Shown in pieces: positions 11,363 to 41,079 of a stretch of 45,337 bases of DNA; position 1 is the first letter of the stretch, and each line of letters begins with the position of its first letter. The notes beneath the pieces were generated by a model. The model did no database searches. It was not told where the DNA came from and worked only from the letters and a program-made list of their open reading frames with translations. The stretch is from Methylococcaceae bacterium (GTDB taxonomy: Bacteria; Pseudomonadota; Gammaproteobacteria; Methylococcales; Methylomonadaceae): assembly GCA_030626845.1 (NCBI GenBank), contig DAOUTG010000011.1:1-45337 (forward strand), given 5' to 3'. The position numbers and the translations under genes were made by a program.

Positions 11363-12277
11363 TTAATCTTTTTCACTTATTTTTTCTACTGCTTTTATTT
11401 CGTTAAGCGTTAATCCTGTTAATTGGACAATTGCATTGTCATCTAAGCCGATTTTTCGCGCTTGAAGTATGATTTGTTGTTGTTGTTTTAAAATAGTTTG
11501 CTGTGCTTGTTGTCTCCCTTCTTCACGTCCTTCTTCACGTCCTTCTTCACGTCCTTCTTCACGTCCTTCTTCACGTCCTTCTTCACGTCCTTCTTCACGT
11601 CCTTCTTTGGCAAACCGTTTTTTTGACTCTTCCCAAGCCATATCATCTTTTATCTCAGATAATAGCGTAGGGTCAATGGTTTTCTTTTTGATAGTGTCAA
11701 TAATTTTTTTCCAAATATTTTCTTGATAATCATTGGTATTCATTTCACCATCAAGTGAGTCTGCGATAAAATCAAGCCATTTTTTTATTTTTGGCGGTGT
11801 TTCTTTATTAGCAAGTCGGGGACAAAGAAAGAGTAGACGATGAGGATAAACGTCAATGGTTTTTCCATGTTCATTAATAGGGTTCATATCACTGACAGCA
11901 CAACTAAAATTAATACTCCCATCACGCGGTGTACTTGTTAATACGACAATGGTATAAACAGTTCGGTCAAAACCATATTCTTTAAAACCACCGACTTGCT
12001 CAACCATGCTAATAAGATGATAGTATAAGAAGCGATCAAAAAAATCGCCTTCTTTAACTTGTTGAATTTCTACGATAATGCGTTTATCAACATCCTCTGC
12101 AAATAAGTCATATTGACTACGAACAAAGCCTATGGGTTCAGGATATTCGTATTCAGTGTGAACTTTATCAATATTGAGTTCAATATTTAAAATGTCTCTG
12201 GCAAATTGTTGAAATACATCAGGCTGACTAAAAGCCCGCTTGAACATAGTTCCATATTTTAAAGGAATGACTTTCAT
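11363..12277 (-). CDS. Rpn-family PD-(D/E)XK nuclease ('putative transposase' family)
   Basis: Belongs to the Rpn/PD-(D/E)XK family of recombination-promoting nucleases. The N-terminus (VIPLKYGTMFKRAFSQPDVF), the active-site pattern Asp57 (QYDLFAED) with Glu70-x-Gln72 (RIIVEIQQ), and FFDRFLYYH follow the family order. Near the C-terminus eight EGR units in tandem (about residues 220-252) form a highly charged, probably helical linker, ending in a short HTH-like tail (ARKIGLDDNAIVQLTGL). Family members are DNA endonucleases implicated in recombination, and many genomes carry several degenerate copies. It splits the cvpA-purF pair, which suggests insertion. All active-site positions are present, so it may be functional. 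Confidence 0.85.
   Translation of the reverse strand: MKVIPLKYGTMFKRAFSQPDVFQQFARDILNIELNIDKVHTEYEYPEPIGFVRSQYDLFAEDVDKRIIVEIQQVKEGDFFDRFLYYHLISMVEQVGGFKEYGFDRTVYTIVVLTSTPRDGSINFSCAVSDMNPINEHGKTIDVYPHRLLFLCPRLANKETPPKIKKWLDFIADSLDGEMNTNDYQENIWKKIIDTIKKKTIDPTLLSEIKDDMAWEESKKRFAKEGREEGREEGREEGREEGREEGREEGREEGRQQAQQTILKQQQQIILQARKIGLDDNAIVQLTGLTLNEIKAVEKISEKD
11517..11600. repeat. Seven tandem copies of a 12-bp unit inside the Rpn gene
   Basis: The plus-strand unit CCTTCTTCACGT repeats perfectly seven times with no spacer. On the coding strand it encodes repeating Glu-Gly-Arg-Glu. Twelve bases keep the frame, so copy-number change would lengthen or shorten the charged linker without inactivating the gene. 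The perfect identity of the units points to recent slippage expansion. Confidence 0.95.
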
Positions 12278-22350: not shown

Positions 22351-23157
22351 TTATTGCTCTTTGAGTAATTGGGAAATTATTTCCTCATCCAAATGAGTTG
22401 CTTGGGAAATAATTTTTATATCAAAGCCTTGTTTTAACATGGTTAACGCGACTTCATATTTAGCTTTTTCAATGCCTTTTTCAATGCCTTTTTTAATCCC
22501 TTTATTTTCCACTTCATCCAAATAGGATTCTTCAATCATATTGTATTTTTCAGTCGGTGAAATATCATCTTCTTCAATATGATCCAATACGCTTTGAATT
22601 TCAGAGAGATGATAATCAGATTCTTCAACTTTACCATCTAAACTATCATCAATAACCTGTAACCATTCACGATAAAGCAGGGGAGTTTTATCATTTAGGT
22701 ATTTTGGACATAAATAAATTATTTTATGAGGAATTTCATTAAGTGAGCGACCCTCTAAGTCTTTAGGGTCAAAGTCAATAACGGAAACATCACGTTTATG
22801 TTTATCGCCTGAGGTTAAAACGACAATAGTATAAACACCTAAGGGAGGACGATAGCTGGATGCACTTTTGATTTGTTGGACTAAGGCAATGCAGTGATAA
22901 TATAAAAAACGATCATAATGATCGGTATGGCGTTCATGTTGAATATCAACAATAATTCGATTTTTTTTATCTTCGGCATATAAATCAAATTTTATTTCAA
23001 CATCGCCAACTGTCGGTTTAAACGACTTTTCAGTCTCAACCGTGTCAATTTCTAGGTTAATACCAATAATATCACGCACGAAACCTTTAAAAACATTAAC
23101 ATCACAAAAGGCTTTTTTAAAGATAACGCCATAGCGTAGTGGGGCTACTTTTTTCAT
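22351..23157 (-). CDS. Second Rpn-family PD-(D/E)XK nuclease
   Basis: A 268-residue relative of the Rpn protein encoded at 11363-12277, with the same layout: [14 protein letters not shown], Asp58 (KFDLYAED), then Asp71-x-Gln73 (RIIVDIQH) where the other copy has Glu, and [17 protein letters not shown]. The C-terminal linker has a shorter charged repeat ([15 protein letters not shown]) and a similar HTH-like end ([16 protein letters not shown]). The Asp-for-Glu change still fits PD-(D/E)XK chemistry. It sits where recO would be expected, between era and pdxJ. Recombination-linked endonuclease activity is inferred from the family. Confidence 0.85.
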
Positions 23158-35201: not shown

Positions 35202-35298
35202 TGTTTAAATTACACTAAAAATAAACCTTATCAAGTTAATAACTATCTACAATAAGCAAATACAGTTTGTTTATCTAATCATATTTAAGGGTAAAAAA

Positions 35299-36237
35299 AT
35301 GAGTTTTAACATATTAGTCACAGGGGGCGCAGGTTATTTAGGGTCTGTTATTGTTCCTGAATTATTAAAATTAGGCCATAAAGTCACGGTTTTAGATAAT
35401 TTCATGTTTTCACCAACCTCATTAGCCGATTGTTGCTATCAAGCTAACTTTGAAGTCGTCCGAGGCGATGCACGAAATAAAGCTTTATTAACAAAATTAG
35501 TGAAAGATAAAGATGTCGTCATTCCATTAGCCGCTTTAGTGGGCGCACCTTTATGTAACCGTGATGAAATTGGTACATTAACCACCAATCGGGATGCGAT
35601 TAAAACCTTGACCGACGTTTTATCGCCTGAACAACGGATATTAATGCCGATTACCAATAGTGGTTATGGCGTTGGACAAGACGGCATTTATTGCACCGAA
35701 GAAACCCCTTTAAATCCGATTTCAACTTATGGACAAACCAAAGTTGATGCCGAAAAAATTGCCTTAGATCGTGGTAATGCGATTAGTTTTCGATTGGCAA
35801 CCGTATTTGGCATGAGTCCACGTATGCGGCTTGATTTATTGGTCAATGATTTTGTTTATCGTGCGGTAAATGATCGCTTTATCGTCATTTTTGAAGGCCA
35901 TTTTAAACGTAATTACATCCATATTCGGGATGTTGCCAATGCGTTTATCATGGGCTTGAATAATTTTGAGACCATGAAAAATGAACCTTATAACGTCGGT
36001 TTATCGGATGCCAATATTTCTAAATTAGAATTGTGTGCAAAAATTAAGGAACAAGTCCCTAACTTTACGATTATAGAAGCTGAAATTGGTAAAGACCCCG
36101 ATCAACGTAATTATATTGTTTCCAATGAAAAAATTGAAAAACTCGGCTTTAAACCGCAGCATTCGTTAGAAATGGGCATTAAAGAATTAATTAAAGCCTA
36201 CACCATTATTAATAATAGTAAATTTAGTAATGTTTAA
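35299..36237 (+). CDS. NAD-dependent sugar epimerase/dehydratase (extended SDR)
   Basis: A 312-residue extended SDR with Rossmann start NILVTGGAGYLGSVIVPELL and catalytic Tyr144-x3-Lys148 (STYGQTKVDAEK) with a preceding Ser121 (TNSGYG). SFRLATVFGMSPRMR and YNVGLSDANISKLEL are typical of nucleotide-sugar epimerases and dehydratases. The substrate is unknown. It is the first gene of a four-gene cassette and overlaps the next by 8 bases. It should supply an epimerised or keto sugar nucleotide to its neighbours, by inference. Confidence 0.85.
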   Translation: MSFNILVTGGAGYLGSVIVPELLKLGHKVTVLDNFMFSPTSLADCCYQANFEVVRGDARNKALLTKLVKDKDVVIPLAALVGAPLCNRDEIGTLTTNRDAIKTLTDVLSPEQRILMPITNSGYGVGQDGIYCTEETPLNPISTYGQTKVDAEKIALDRGNAISFRLATVFGMSPRMRLDLLVNDFVYRAVNDRFIVIFEGHFKRNYIHIRDVANAFIMGLNNFETMKNEPYNVGLSDANISKLELCAKIKEQVPNFTIIEAEIGKDPDQRNYIVSNEKIEKLGFKPQHSLEMGIKELIKAYTIINNSKFSNV

Positions 36238-37171
36238 CCCCGATTCTAAAATCTACCTAGCAGGCCATACGGGCTTGCTAGGCTCGGCTTTCGTTCGCGT
36301 GTTGAAAGCTCAAGGGTATAAAAACCTCATTACACGCAGCCATGAGTCACTAAATTTAACCGACAAACCACAAACAGAGGCTTTTTTTAAAGCTGAACGT
36401 CCTGAGTATGTTTTTTTATGTGCGGGGAAAGTCGGCGGTATTATTGGCAATAAAACCCGTCCTGCTGATTTTTTACAGCAGAATTTAGCCATTCAAACCA
36501 ACGTCTTTGAAATGGCAAATCAATACGCGGTTAAAAATCTACTCTTTTATGGCTCATCTTGCACCTATCCCAAATTATGTGAACAACCGATGCACGAAAA
36601 ACATTGGCTCACAGGCGCAATTGAAGAAACTAGCATGGGTTATGCCGCCGCTAAAATAGCAGGGATTATTGGCTGTCGTGCTTATAATAGCCAATATGAA
36701 ACGAATCGTTTTATTTGTGTGATTCCCAACTCCATGTATGGGGAAAATGATAATTTTGACTTAGAAAATTCGCATGTGTTTTCCGCGCTGATTCGACGTT
36801 TTCATGAGGCTCAAAAAACAGGGGATTCAGAAATAACTTTATGGGGAACGGGTAGCCCACGACGTGAGTTTATTTTTAGTGAAGATGTCGCTGATGCCTC
36901 ACTTTTTCTGATGAAAAATGCCGAAAAACTCGAAAACCAACATTACAATTTAGGCACAGGCACGGATTATTCAATTAAAGAACTCGCTGAAAAAATTGCC
37001 AAGGTCGTCGGTTTTCAAGGACAGATAAAATGGGATACCCAAAAACCTGATGGCACACCGAGAAAATTATTAGACAGTTCACGCTTATTAGCCTTAGGTT
37101 GGCAACCGAGCGTCAACTTTGAAGACGGCTTAAAAACAACCTATCACTGGTTTAAAAAACATTATGATTGA
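36230..37171 (+). CDS. GDP-L-fucose synthase-like SDR
   Basis: A 313-residue SDR close to GDP-L-fucose synthase (Fcl/WcaG): KIYLAGHTGLLGSAFVRVL at the NADP site, FYGSSCTYPKLCEQP with the catalytic Ser109/Cys111 pair, Tyr138-x3-Lys142 (GYAAAKIAG), and LWGTGSPRREFIFSEDVADA. All the epimerase-reductase residues are visible. No GDP-mannose 4,6-dehydratase (gmd) lies nearby, so the true substrate may be another 4-keto sugar nucleotide. It overlaps genes on both sides by 8 bases. Confidence 0.85.
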   Translation: MFNPDSKIYLAGHTGLLGSAFVRVLKAQGYKNLITRSHESLNLTDKPQTEAFFKAERPEYVFLCAGKVGGIIGNKTRPADFLQQNLAIQTNVFEMANQYAVKNLLFYGSSCTYPKLCEQPMHEKHWLTGAIEETSMGYAAAKIAGIIGCRAYNSQYETNRFICVIPNSMYGENDNFDLENSHVFSALIRRFHEAQKTGDSEITLWGTGSPRREFIFSEDVADASLFLMKNAEKLENQHYNLGTGTDYSIKELAEKIAKVVGFQGQIKWDTQKPDGTPRKLLDSSRLLALGWQPSVNFEDGLKTTYHWFKKHYD

Positions 37172-37991
37172 TACCGCGTATTTAAAACAACAGGCTAAAT
37201 TTTTGAGGATCGAAACCTTAAAAATTCACAAAGCCGCCCCTGAAGTCCGTGTTGCCTCCTCATTATCACCGATAGAAATATTTACCGCATTATTTTATGG
37301 CAAACTACTGCGTTATAACCCTAAAAACCCGCGTGATGAAAATCGAGATCGGCTCATTATCTCCAAAGGGCATGGCTCAATTTGCATGTACCCCTTATTA
37401 GCCGATTTAGGTTTTTTTGATAAAGACGAATTAAAGCGTGTTTGTAAAAGTGGTAGTTTTTTAGGCGGTATTCCCGACCCGATTATTCCAGGGTATGAAA
37501 CCGTCAATGGATCATTAGGCCATGGTTTAGGCGTTGCGTGTGGAATTGCCTTAGCCTTAAAAACCAAAAAATCCGATAAAAAAGCCGTGGTATTGACGGG
37601 TGATGGCGAATTAAATGAAGGTGCAAATTGGGAAGCCATTATGTGTGCCGCACAGCATAAGCTGGATAATCTAACCTTGATTGTTGATTATAATAAAGTG
37701 TCCATGCTAGATTTTAGTAAAAACATTATTGACTTAAATTCATTATCCGAAAAATTCAAAGCTTTTAATTGGGATGTCTATGAAATTGAAGACGGTCATG
37801 ATATTGAGCAAGTTTATAACACCTTGAAAACGGCTTTTTCAGATCAACAGCAAAAACCCAAAGTGGTGATTGCCCATACGGTGAAAGGCAAAGGCATCCC
37901 CTTTTTAGAAACACATCCCTTAAGTCATATCTTATCGGTGAAAGAAGGGGATATTGATGGCTTAGTGGAGGAGATTAAACATGCAGATTAA
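37164..37991 (+). CDS. Transketolase-like N-terminal (TPP-binding) subunit
   Basis: A 275-residue half of a split transketolase. KGHGSICMYPLLADLG, GSLGHGLGVACGIAL and the thiamine-pyrophosphate motif GDGELNEGANWEA (GDG at 146-148) ending in VDYN are visible. The split N/C form is common outside central metabolism. It overlaps the fucose-synthase-like gene by 8 bases and the C-terminal subunit by 11, so the two halves are made together. Location among sugar-nucleotide genes suggests a dedicated two-carbon transfer in glycan synthesis, not the pentose pathway; this is inference. Confidence 0.88.
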   Translation: MIDTAYLKQQAKFLRIETLKIHKAAPEVRVASSLSPIEIFTALFYGKLLRYNPKNPRDENRDRLIISKGHGSICMYPLLADLGFFDKDELKRVCKSGSFLGGIPDPIIPGYETVNGSLGHGLGVACGIALALKTKKSDKKAVVLTGDGELNEGANWEAIMCAAQHKLDNLTLIVDYNKVSMLDFSKNIIDLNSLSEKFKAFNWDVYEIEDGHDIEQVYNTLKTAFSDQQQKPKVVIAHTVKGKGIPFLETHPLSHILSVKEGDIDGLVEEIKHAD

Positions 37992-38895
37992 AGCGATGCG
38001 CGATGTATTTTTAGCGGCATTACATCAAAAAATGCACGAAGATGACAGCCTGTTTTTTGTATCGGCTGATTTTGGCGCGCCGATTTTAGATAAAATTAGA
38101 GCAGATTTTCCTGATCGGTTTATTAATGTCGGGATTGCAGAACAGAATTTAATTAATGTCTCTGTTGGTTTAGCGTTAGAAGGTTTTACCGTTTATGCCT
38201 ATGCGATTGCCCCATTTATCACCATGCGTTGTTATGAGCAAATTCGAGTGAACATTGCCATTTTATCGCAATTAAGACCGATGAATATTAACCTAATTGG
38301 GGTCGGTGCAGGGGTTAGTTATAGCTTGAGTGGGCCTACGCATCATTGCCTTGAAGATTTATCAATTATGCGTACTTTACCGAATTTGGAAGTGTTTTCA
38401 CCCAGTGATTATTTATTAACGGAAAGCTATGTTGAACGCACCATAGCGAATAAAACACCTAAATATTTACGTTTTGATGCGATGCCGATGTTGCCCGCAT
38501 CTGAGTCGGTTGAGAACTTTGATGAGGGTTTTAGAGTCTTACAAACAGGCTCGAAAGCGGTGATTATCGCCACAGGTTACATGAGTCAAAAAGCGAAAAA
38601 AGTCGCGGCTGATTTTGATGTCATGGTGATTGATCTTTATTTTTTAAATGCCTATGACTTAGAAAAATTACAAGTCTGTTTAGAGGGCATTGAAACTGTG
38701 ATTACTTTGGAAGAAGGCTTTAAAGGGGTTGGGGGTTTGGATAGTGAAATCAATTCTAAATTGAAAAATAAACAAGTGACTAATTTAGGCTTTGAACAAA
38801 AATATACCTTTGAAGTCGGTTCACGGGAATTTGTTCATGAAGAAAATGGCTTGGGTGAACAGGATTTGATTACATTATTAAAATCAGTTAAATAA
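37981..38895 (+). CDS. Transketolase-like C-terminal (pyrimidine-binding) subunit
   Basis: A 304-residue partner of the preceding subunit: VSADFGAP, then RFINVGIAEQNLINVSVGLALEG (the glutamate that activates TPP lies in GIAEQN), a pyrimidine-domain stretch ending near 180, and a C-terminal domain with VIIATGYMS and VITLEEGFKGVGGLDSE. It matches transketolase C-terminal/DXS-like subunits. It closes the cassette and is followed by a palindrome at 38997. No glycosyltransferase or other sugar gene follows. Confidence 0.88.
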   Translation: MQIKAMRDVFLAALHQKMHEDDSLFFVSADFGAPILDKIRADFPDRFINVGIAEQNLINVSVGLALEGFTVYAYAIAPFITMRCYEQIRVNIAILSQLRPMNINLIGVGAGVSYSLSGPTHHCLEDLSIMRTLPNLEVFSPSDYLLTESYVERTIANKTPKYLRFDAMPMLPASESVENFDEGFRVLQTGSKAVIIATGYMSQKAKKVAADFDVMVIDLYFLNAYDLEKLQVCLEGIETVITLEEGFKGVGGLDSEINSKLKNKQVTNLGFEQKYTFEVGSREFVHEENGLGEQDLITLLKSVK

Positions 38896-38996
38896 AACAT
38901 AATTTGATGAGAAATGAATAATACCCCATAGCAGCTAGATTAGGTTATATACTTTTTAAATAAAGGAGATTTCTGTACATGATAAAAATGTAAATC

Positions 38997-39568: not shown

Positions 39569-40531
39569 ATGAATGAACATTTTTTAACAGACATAGAGAT
39601 TAAAGAGTTCAAATGTTTTAGTGATTTTGAGGCTAAAGGGTTTAAGCGGGTTAATTTGATTGGTGGGAAAAATAATATTGGTAAGACGGCGTTTATGGAG
39701 GCTTGTTATATTAATGTTCATTCTCAGGATGTAGCAACAATGCTTACCGCGATAGGAAGAGTTAAATATAATAGAGAAAAAATAAACTTAGAGGTAGACA
39801 GTTATCCAAATGATTTCTTTATAAGTATAGAAAAATATGATGTGAGATCTAATATTGGTGATAATAGTTTTTTAAAATCAACAAAAGATTTTCCATCAAA
39901 ATATTTTATTAAACCCAATGATAACAAGGAAAAATATATCATTGTTCTTAGTGATTTAAATAATTTTGAAATACAGCACTGGGGTCATATTAATTTTATA
40001 GATAACGTTGGATTATCACATGAGAGTTTGTCTTTAATTTATAAAGATGTCCAAAAACAAGATAAAGAAAATTTACTGAATAAATATCTTAACGAGTTTG
40101 ATAGTAATATTGAAAATTTTAAGATTATTGGTGATGATCCTCAGTGTAAAGTTCAAGGTGAATATCGAGATATAACCGAATTTGGCGATGGATTAAAGCA
40201 CTATATTTCCATTATCTGTGCTTTATTCCAGTGTGAAAATGGCTATTTATTTATAGATGAAATAGATAATGGGATTCATTACACACAGTTAGATAGATTA
40301 TGGGAAATTATTTTAATTTTATCTGAGCAAAATAAATGCCAAGTTTTTGCAACAACGCATTCAAAGGAAATGATTGATTCGTTTGCGCGAGTATCTGAAA
40401 AACTAAATGAACAGGATATTAGTTATACAACAATTATTAAAAATAGGGAAAGTAAACTTAAAGCCATTACACGTAGTTATGGTGGACTTTTGGGGAGTCT
40501 TGAGGATGAGCGTGAGGTTAGAGGACGATGA
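39569..40531 (+). CDS. AAA/SMC-like ATPase of a candidate defence module
   Basis: A 320-residue ATPase of the OLD/RecF-like group (AAA_15/AAA_21). It begins DIEIKEFKCFSDFEAKGFKRVNLIGG, with Walker A GKNNIGKT at 33-40. A signature-like stretch EFGDGLKHYISII (204-216), Walker B LFIDEID (227-233) and the H-loop ATTHSKEM (His264) follow. The middle (about 60-190) is AT-rich and divergent, with no coiled coil of note. It lacks the fused TOPRIM domain of OLD proteins; that domain is the next gene, which overlaps by four bases. ATPase plus separate TOPRIM is the plan of anti-phage systems such as PARIS. The defence role is inferred. Confidence 0.85.
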   Translation: MNEHFLTDIEIKEFKCFSDFEAKGFKRVNLIGGKNNIGKTAFMEACYINVHSQDVATMLTAIGRVKYNREKINLEVDSYPNDFFISIEKYDVRSNIGDNSFLKSTKDFPSKYFIKPNDNKEKYIIVLSDLNNFEIQHWGHINFIDNVGLSHESLSLIYKDVQKQDKENLLNKYLNEFDSNIENFKIIGDDPQCKVQGEYRDITEFGDGLKHYISIICALFQCENGYLFIDEIDNGIHYTQLDRLWEIILILSEQNKCQVFATTHSKEMIDSFARVSEKLNEQDISYTTIIKNRESKLKAITRSYGGLLGSLEDEREVRGR

Positions 40532-41079
40532 GTATTGCAATTATTTGTGAAGGAAAAAATGATAAAGATTTTTTATGTGAGTTTATTGATTTTTTAGAAT
40601 TTAAAAAAAAGGTTGATTTTTATATTTTTAGTGGAAAAAGTTTTATTTTAAAATCGGATAGTCAAAAATATAAAGAGTTATTCAATGAACTTGAACAAAT
40701 AGATAAAATTTTATTTATAGTTGATGCAGATGACCAAAAAAATGATTCTAATTATGGTGGCTTTAAAAATACACAAGCTGTTTTAAATAAGGTGATTAAT
40801 GAGTTAAATTTAGATGAATTAAGTCAAACTTACATTATGTGTGACCCCAGAACTAAAAAAGGTTATTTGGAATCATTGATTCTTTCAACGCTTGAGGATG
40901 AACAACAAAAATGTATCCAATGTTTTTTGAAATGTACGGGATGGAAGCCAGAAAAAGGCGATAAAACCGTTTATCATCGCCTTTATAAAACAGGCTATCC
41001 CAATCCTCAGCATAATTTTAAGCATGAAAATTTTAATTCATTAAAAGGTATTTTAAAAAACTTTTTTGACAATTATTAA
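40528..41079 (+). CDS. TOPRIM-like (DUF3226/DUF4435-type) protein, candidate nuclease
   Basis: A 183-residue protein with the TOPRIM pattern: IAIICEGKNDKDFL with Glu8, then ILFIVDADDQ with Asp66-x-Asp68. These are the metal-binding acids of TOPRIM nucleases and topoisomerases. The rest is divergent, with WKPEKGDKTVYHRLY and a lysine-rich end. It starts inside the ATPase stop (ATGA) and ends only six bases before dnaE. By analogy with OLD, Gabija or PARIS, the ATPase would sense or load and this protein would cleave nucleic acid. Which DUF it belongs to, and whether it cuts DNA or tRNA, is not decidable from sequence. Confidence 0.8.
   Translation: MSIAIICEGKNDKDFLCEFIDFLEFKKKVDFYIFSGKSFILKSDSQKYKELFNELEQIDKILFIVDADDQKNDSNYGGFKNTQAVLNKVINELNLDELSQTYIMCDPRTKKGYLESLILSTLEDEQQKCIQCFLKCTGWKPEKGDKTVYHRLYKTGYPNPQHNFKHENFNSLKGILKNFFDNY

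Follow-up and report, generated by a model that had tools for sequence, protein, structure and literature searches.

A four-gene cassette with a split transketolase that looks like the core of a route to a GDP-activated seven-carbon surface sugar

The window analysed here, the whole 45,337-nucleotide stretch of contig DAOUTG010000011.1 (assembly GCA_030626845.1) from a Methylococcaceae bacterium, is part of a 2.5-Mb genome that is 96% complete. It carries a cassette of four open reading frames (ORF1 to ORF4) that overlap by 8, 8 and 11 bases (Table 1) and encode an extended short-chain dehydrogenase/reductase (SDR), a second SDR resembling GDP-L-fucose synthase, and the two halves of a transketolase; the reading frames and Pfam matches bear out, gene for gene, a preliminary description of this DNA made from its letters. 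A thioredoxin-reductase-like gene lies upstream and an AAA-ATPase gene downstream. The cassette is kept at 83-88% DNA identity in two same-genus genomes, where blastn aligned window positions 35233-38867 with L022 (87.5%) and 35271-38901 with L023 (83.1%), the edges of homology coinciding with those of the cassette. Because the unit is conserved between unrelated flanks, the arrangement is not a matter of chance. A near relative labelled Methylococcaceae, L045, shares 90% in ORF4. By comparison with related loci, the four genes look like the core of an undescribed route to a GDP-activated seven-carbon sugar for the cell surface.

Table 1. Genes of the cassette, with positions in the window
Feature	Position	Strand	Remarks
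ORF1, Cj1427-like GDP-heptose C4-dehydrogenase	35299..36237	+	312 aa, extended SDR; Pfam Epimerase 1.6e-29; phmmer to PDB 6vo6
ORF2, GDP-L-fucose-synthase-like epimerase/reductase	36230..37171	+	313 aa; Pfam Epimerase 2.7e-55; 1bsv E 1.2e-92
ORF3, split transketolase, N-terminal half binding thiamine diphosphate (ThDP)	37164..37991	+	275 aa; PF00456 (Transketolase_N) 1.2e-36
ORF4, split transketolase, C-terminal half	37981..38895	+	304 aa; PF02779/PF02780 (Transket_pyr 5.1e-24, Transketolase_C 6.4e-08); 6yaj 1.7e-28
Four-gene cassette as a unit	35233..38901	+	blastn to L022 and L023, flanks non-homologous

Comparison of ORF1 with all solved structures by phmmer gave 6vo6/6vo8 (375 bits, E 2.1e-111), aligned over residues 1-311 and thus end to end; the second-best solved chain reached 79.6 bits (E 2.3e-21). 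We take 6vo6 to be Cj1427 of Campylobacter jejuni, although its PDB row says only putative sugar-nucleotide epimerase/dehydratase. According to the available part of PMC10680097, Cj1427 takes GDP-heptose as its substrate, with reduction of alpha-ketoglutarate to L-2-hydroxyglutarate, and GDP-3-deoxy-4-keto-heptose was obtained in vitro from Cj1427 together with a C3-dehydratase.

To compare neighbourhoods, the GTDB genome collection was scanned with the C-terminal half of the split transketolase; at least 579 relatives were returned, the best 80 of which gave 79 loci, and loci of the same order and viral contigs were added. Removal of six duplicate contigs left 97 loci, and the presence table covers 96 of these (L036, with a C-half match below 200 aa, was taken out); presence was called by tblastn thresholds, under which diverged partners can be missed. 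We refer to the 66 loci with at least 43% identity in the C-half as close and to the 30 below 43% as distant. Among the 35 close loci that have 8 kb or more of sequence to either side, a gene for an ORF1-type C4-dehydrogenase was present in 33, HddA-, HddC- and ColD-type genes in 29 each, and a B12 radical S-adenosylmethionine (radical-SAM) gene in 28; ORF2-type genes followed in 21, GmhA in 12, LhgO in six and GmhB in five. The split transketolase genes thus stand beside genes that form a keto sugar, and the C4-dehydrogenase co-occurs with genes of GDP-heptose synthesis; it was found in only 2/18 well-covered distant loci. The ColD-type proteins carry His at the position of the pyridoxal-phosphate (PLP) lysine in 47 of 51 cases; three of the four with Lys are accompanied by a His-type copy in their locus, and the fourth is in L071. 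In Sulfuricurvum (L047), the genes form one contiguous operon in the order LhgO-HddC-HddA-ColD-C4-dehydrogenase-transketolase N-half-C-half-radical SAM. Named strains with relatives are Methylomonas sp. LW13, Methylomonas fluvii EbB, Rhizobium sp. Leaf262 and Pseudomonas turukhanskensis.

The same association was seen within the order. C-half matches at E 1e-30 were found in 16 of its 201 genomes, and the 12 with at least 52% identity are exactly the 12 with a C4-dehydrogenase at E 1e-60 (Fisher p 1.5e-19, with kinship not corrected for). HddA at E 1e-60 occurs in those 12 and in six others. Linkage and co-occurrence therefore support the proposal in the preliminary description that a dedicated transketolase goes with the sugar-nucleotide genes, its probable role being the transfer of a two-carbon unit to a keto sugar. 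A hexose scaffold made by Gmd is not supported; given the likeness of ORF1 to 6vo6 and the HddA- and HddC-like neighbours, the scaffold is most likely a GDP-heptose. Since transketolase makes sedoheptulose 7-phosphate, from which heptose is derived, and HddA and HddC are common neighbours, the split enzyme might also merely supply that precursor and never touch the sugar nucleotide. It nevertheless tracks the late C4-dehydrogenase (33/35) far more than GmhA (12/35), 6/18 genomes with HddA lack it, and the conserved cassette pairs it with the C4-dehydrogenase, not with GmhA or HddA.

Residues of the two halves bear on the same question. ORF3 matches best 6yak, the N-terminal component of a split-chain transketolase (1e-48), and is nearer to transketolase than to DXS; the best PDB match of ORF4 is the C-terminal chain of a split transketolase. 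Both transketolase domains are present with their ThDP-binding and catalytic residues, including the catalytic Glu in ORF4; across the close loci, E411 and H473 are kept in 66/66 and D155 and N185 in 65/65. The contacts to substrate, which we take to be S385, H461, D469, R520, H26 and H100 of E. coli transketolase, are lost throughout the close loci: 0/66 for each of the first four, 0/64 for H26 and 0/65 for H100. Their replacements are uniform, with Pro for S385 (65/66), Gly for H461 (66/66; in a smaller alignment this position fell in a gap), Ala, Gly or Ser for R520 (66/66), Arg for H26 (64/64) and Ile for H100 (65/65). Distant split relatives keep S385 in 6/29, H461 in 1/30, D469 in 4/30, R520 in 15/30, H26 in 27/29 and H100 in 21/29. 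The losses of H461 and D469 are therefore not special, being general among the distant relatives, and it is Arg26, Ile100 and the small residue at 520 that mark the close group, since distant relatives often keep H26, H100 and R520; one of them, L120, keeps every contact except S385 (Thr). The genome of the window also has a canonical transketolase in a 664-aa frame (G000:C91), and this full-length enzyme keeps all the listed contacts. The preliminary description had held that the halves would serve central metabolism if the genome had no other transketolase, and a role of ORF3/ORF4 as its replacement was accordingly rejected.

The lost contacts also touch the identity of the donor. The His100 equivalent presumably contacts the C1 hydroxyl of the donor; with Ile in its place in 65/65 close loci, and the Ser385 and Arg520 equivalents gone in 66/66, pyruvate could be used as in DXS or in YerE of yersiniose A, so that acetyl rather than hydroxyacetyl would be added. 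The branching enzymes YerE and alphaKADH2 use pyruvate, as given in the available part of PMC12247030. On the other hand, ORF3 is nearer to transketolase than to DXS, the closest solved C-terminal chain is that of a split transketolase, and the donor is not readable from sequence, the DXS comparison aimed at it being ambiguous around position 100. We regard a pyruvate donor, which is compatible with the explanation favoured below, as a possible variant with the odds somewhat against it.

Relatives in another setting are informative as to the acceptor. Four distant matches from the same taxonomic order, L033-L036, have the two transketolase halves next to RfbH and to an SDR common to all four. 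RfbF and RfbG are present in three of them, the fourth stopping at a contig edge, and in L033 and L036 RfbF, RfbG and RfbH all score above curated cut-offs; the split transketolase lies between RfbF-RfbG-RfbH and the SDR. This route leads to CDP-3,6-dideoxy-4-ketoglucose, to which YerE adds two carbons on the way to yersiniose (PMC12247030, available part). In five other large reading frames (two in L033, two in L034, one in L036) no ThDP-enzyme match was found, YerE itself not having been searched for. As these relatives belong to a hexose pathway with no need of sedoheptulose, they argue against a mere supply role. That role draws some support from three heptose-linked distant loci that keep Arg520, but the Ser385, Arg520, His26 and His100 equivalents are gone in the close set and the genome has its canonical transketolase; on the C4-dehydrogenase linkage, the lost contacts and the CDP-hexose relatives, it was rejected as the main explanation, and we consider it improbable.

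In the window genome, each gene of the L047 operon has a homologue, with the set split into four pieces: the C4-dehydrogenase, ORF2 and both transketolase halves in the window; an HddA-like and a ColD-type gene at C103, each with 67% identity to its L047 counterpart; a 735-aa membrane protein, LhgO (48%), HddC (53%) and GmhB at C72; and the radical-SAM enzyme (66%) at C89. The ColD/RfbH-type protein at G000:C103 has FFSHHISTMEGG, with His replacing the PLP lysine, the residue expected of a C3-dehydratase. GmhB scores above one cut-off (TIGR00213, 178 bits against 150). The LhgO-like gene adjoins HddC and fits the L-2-hydroxyglutarate that ORF1 would release as a by-product if it works, as expected of a Cj1427-type enzyme, by a ping-pong reaction with alpha-ketoglutarate. 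Two same-genus genomes, G163 and G197, have the pieces as in the window genome, and the cassette-free G184 lacks the C4-dehydrogenase, HddA and the radical-SAM gene and has a weak HddC match. A single 2.97-Mb contig of G163 carries all the pieces, at 0.23, 1.73, 2.44 and 2.48 Mb, and the scatter is therefore not an effect of assembly. PD-(D/E)XK nuclease-family transposase proteins (PF12784) are encoded in the window at 11363-12277 and 22351-23157, beside HddA-ColD in the same genome (L149 8069-8911) and near the G163 cassette (L022 5485-6498), and they might be related to the scattering.

The 735-aa membrane protein, for which no Pfam or NCBIfam family was matched, has ten hydrophobic segments in a simple scan and among the searched loci is confined to the genus; our guess is a periplasmic transferase. 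Next to the radical-SAM gene lie genes for a VTT-domain protein and a family 2 glycosyltransferase (GT2), whose best solved relatives are sll0501, presumably GtrB, and undecaprenyl-phosphate formamidoarabinose transferases; homologues with 44-52% identity occur in eight of the other loci. In G163, the VTT-domain gene between the radical-SAM and GT2 genes seems shortened compared with the window genome (L167 9570-9887). The earlier statement that no glycosyltransferase is linked thus holds on the contig for GT2, where none of the nine GT2 (PF00535) matches of the genome lies, other glycosyltransferase families not having been searched, but it does not extend to the radical-SAM piece elsewhere, with its adjoining undecaprenyl-phosphate-type GT2.

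The best NCBIfam model for ORF2 is GDP-L-fucose synthase at 405.1 bits, short of the equivalog cut-off of 500. ORF2 aligns with the E. coli GDP-fucose synthetase 1bsv over residues 6-312 and has the residues of a fucose synthase: Cys111 and His182, which align with the epimerase dyad, and the Ser/Tyr138/Lys142 triad of SDRs. The dyad roles of Cys109 and His179 in fucose synthase are described in the available part of PMC7949155, where T110 and H180 are named for the Campylobacter reductases; we infer that this T110 stands at the Cys position of the dyad. In cluster homologues of ORF2, the dyad equivalents are Cys in 37/37 and His in 37/37, and with this dyad intact ORF2 seems capable of epimerisation as well as reduction.

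These features raise the possibility that the genes are unrelated neighbours, ORF2 being a GDP-fucose synthase for a distant gmd and ORF3/ORF4 a spare transketolase of central metabolism. As described earlier, gmd is not near the cassette; none was found on the contig of the window. The genome search that had been suggested did find one, above its cut-off, at G000:C63 (L173), and the other two cassette genomes also have gmd, with none in a fourth same-genus genome. The gmd at C63, however, is already followed by a reductase-like SDR of its own, which among solved structures is closest to a putative epimerase and to GDP-6-deoxyhexose reductases, and on this ground a gmd-dependent GDP-fucose route was rejected as the main role. 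With ORF1 to ORF4 overlapping and conserved as a unit, and ORF3/ORF4 devoid of the contacts that the full-length transketolase keeps, unrelated neighbours are very improbable.

A second alternative keeps ORF3/ORF4 within the GDP-heptose pathway and has them act on another carbonyl or an aldehyde, or cleave the chain, possibly after ORF2 has epimerised and reduced at C4. The intact dyad of ORF2 suggests ordinary C3/C5 epimerisation with reduction at C4, and no ketone would then be left there. The clusters L083, L100, L102 and L114, whose two split-transketolase pairs each suggest two additions of a two-carbon unit, also count in its favour. Yet ORF2 is dispensed with in 14/35 loci, and in most loci the presence of a C4-dehydrogenase and a ColD-type gene is indicative of a 3-deoxy-4-keto acceptor. 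We hold this alternative to be unlikely.

Collectively, these findings suggest that the cassette is the middle of a GDP-heptose pathway with transketolase-derived two-carbon branching at the C4 ketone, a reading to which we give a probability of roughly 0.6. ORF1 would oxidise C4 of GDP-heptose and pass the electrons to alpha-ketoglutarate, giving L-2-hydroxyglutarate, which the LhgO-like enzyme of the genome would recycle. The ColD/RfbH-type PLP enzyme would then take off the C3 hydroxyl, and ORF3 and ORF4, a ThDP enzyme of transketolase descent, most likely join a two-carbon unit to C4 of the resulting GDP-3-deoxy-4-keto-heptose, with a ketose phosphate, hydroxypyruvate or pyruvate as candidate donors. 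The product would be a 4-C-branched 3-deoxy nonose in the form of a GDP derivative. ORF2 would epimerise and/or reduce a keto intermediate, the B12 radical-SAM enzyme would make one further change to the sugar, and the GtrB/ArnC-like GT2 would put it on undecaprenyl phosphate for decoration of a surface glycan. What the analysis shows is gene likeness, linkage, co-occurrence and residue changes; from these we infer the individual reactions in the organism and their order, the donor and the final glycan.

Several observations weigh against branching at C4. The main loose ends are ORF2 and the weak HddA score. The dyad, kept in 37/37 homologues, would be superfluous in an enzyme that did no more than reduce the branch ketone, and ORF2 is missing from 14/35 well-covered close loci. 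Scores fell short of NCBIfam cut-offs for HddA (144 of 600 bits), HddC (279 of 300), LhgO (289 of 299) and the ColD-type protein as RfbH (262 of 423), so that these names, HddA above all, stand only for the best model. In this genome the tie to the pathway rests on comparison, because genes for heptose synthesis or a dehydratase are absent from the cassette. Among the well-covered close loci the C4-dehydrogenase is missing in two (L050, L095), and ColD-type and HddA genes in six each, of which two each are same-genus loci with the gene elsewhere; many loci are contigs of metagenome-assembled genomes (MAGs), and 11/35 come from a single order. His461 is gone in 29/30 and Asp469 in 26/30 distant split relatives, and the heptose-linked distant loci L105, L107 and L110 keep His26, His100 and Arg520, so that heptose linkage does not depend on the residues typical of the close group. 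Lastly, a SIS (GmhA-like) protein at C106 exceeds one phosphoheptose-isomerase cut-off (300 against 276) but lies between YraN- and YraP-like genes, a setting we take to be typical of DiaA; since it also occurs in the cassette-free G184 and was not found at equal strength in G197, it may not be part of the pathway.

We examined the spread of the split transketolase with a tree of 94 rows (92 loci rows and two full-length enzymes), made by a quick method that gave long-branch warnings. In it, 67/94 rows including the window form one clade with a support of 100 in the Shimodaira-Hasegawa-like approximate likelihood-ratio test. The nearest relatives of the window outside its genus are Campylobacterota, L046 (support 100) and then L047 (94), rather than other loci of the order Methylococcales, which makes a transfer of the cassette between these groups probable. 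Among the labels in this clade are Pseudomonadota, Campylobacterota, Nitrospirota, Planctomycetota, Verrucomicrobiota, Omnitrophota and an archaeal MAG, with binning errors possible; the close type was found in genomes labelled as about a dozen phyla. Plasmid searches returned 139 records, all below 60% identity.

Some further loci are recorded here in their own right. The viral-classed contigs L037, L038 and L039 carry split-transketolase pairs with radical-SAM and ColD-type genes, and L037 also HddC- and HddA-like genes. A Ruminococcaceae locus (L113 1500-7524) combines a dehydratase-like SDR, an RfbH-like gene, two ORF2-like genes and a split transketolase, and is perhaps a GDP-hexose version. 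Adjoining the cassette in the window is a pair of genes for an AAA ATPase and a DUF3226 protein (39569-41079, GC content 28%), with AbiLi (5.1e-49) and PDC-M38B (5.5e-07) as their respective best PADLOC matches, which makes them a candidate phage-defence pair.

According to the available part of PMC12247030, a ketone as the acceptor of a transketolase has been put forward for Streptomyces antibiotics but not examined in vitro. Suitable test cases are numerous among the relatives of the cassette, named strains included, and the acceptor itself has already been produced by enzymes (PMC10680097, available part). If correct, our model predicts a class of branched higher-carbon surface sugars and provides a context for the B12 radical-SAM enzyme. 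We tentatively propose, as a more far-reaching idea that may well not hold, that the remodelled split transketolase is the first transketolase-type enzyme with a nucleotide-sugar ketone as acceptor, and that it leads to 4-C-branched C9 (with two copies, C11) sugars from GDP-heptose, altered by the radical-SAM enzyme (perhaps methylated or carbocyclic) and placed on the surface by the GtrB-like transferase. In the searched literature, which comprised titles and the starts of abstracts with most subscription journals outside its coverage, no description of a heptose-linked, multi-phylum split transketolase was found, nor any link of a transketolase to caryophyllose, caryose or bradyrhizose. The caryophyllose analogy drawn in the preliminary description is not upheld, as that sugar is ascribed to the YerE-like decarboxylase MMAR_2332 (PMC12247030, available part).

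Among known systems, the GDP-heptose modification of C. jejuni, with Cj1427 as C4-dehydrogenase, a C3-dehydratase (HS:5) and WcaG-type C4-reductases, is like the one proposed here in having an end-to-end homologue of ORF1, HddA-, HddC-, GmhB-, ColD- and WcaG-type partners, and the intermediate GDP-3-deoxy-4-keto-heptose, made in vitro there (PMC10680097, available part). It differs in its use of separate C3/C5 epimerases, and transketolase goes unmentioned in the available part of that article; what is added here is the split transketolase, often the B12 radical-SAM enzyme and sometimes LhgO. Split-gene transketolases that move hydroxyacetyl to a keto sugar have been proposed for miharamycin and amipurimycin in Streptomyces, where the available part of PMC12247030 counts 13 putative sequences, all from Streptomycetes and none characterised in vitro. 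By description, these share with ORF3/ORF4 the split architecture and a proposed keto-sugar acceptor, whereas here the setting is GDP-heptose and a surface glycan, in many other phyla. YerE resembles the proposed reaction in adding a two-carbon unit to C4 of a 3-deoxy-4-keto nucleotide sugar, and the CDP-type relatives L033 and L036 carry RfbF-RfbG-RfbH, its acceptor pathway; YerE, however, is a decarboxylase-type ThDP enzyme with a CDP-hexose acceptor, and ORF3/ORF4 are not of that type but consist of transketolase domains. The E. coli GDP-L-fucose synthase (1bsv) has the Cys/His dyad in common with ORF2, whose neighbour is a C4-dehydrogenase and not Gmd. The split-chain transketolase of Carboxydothermus hydrogenoformans (6yaj/6yak) shares the two-gene architecture and is the best PDB match of both halves, and, unlike ORF4 with its VGAG and LSG, 6yaj has THAG and EDG and seems to keep His461 and Asp469.

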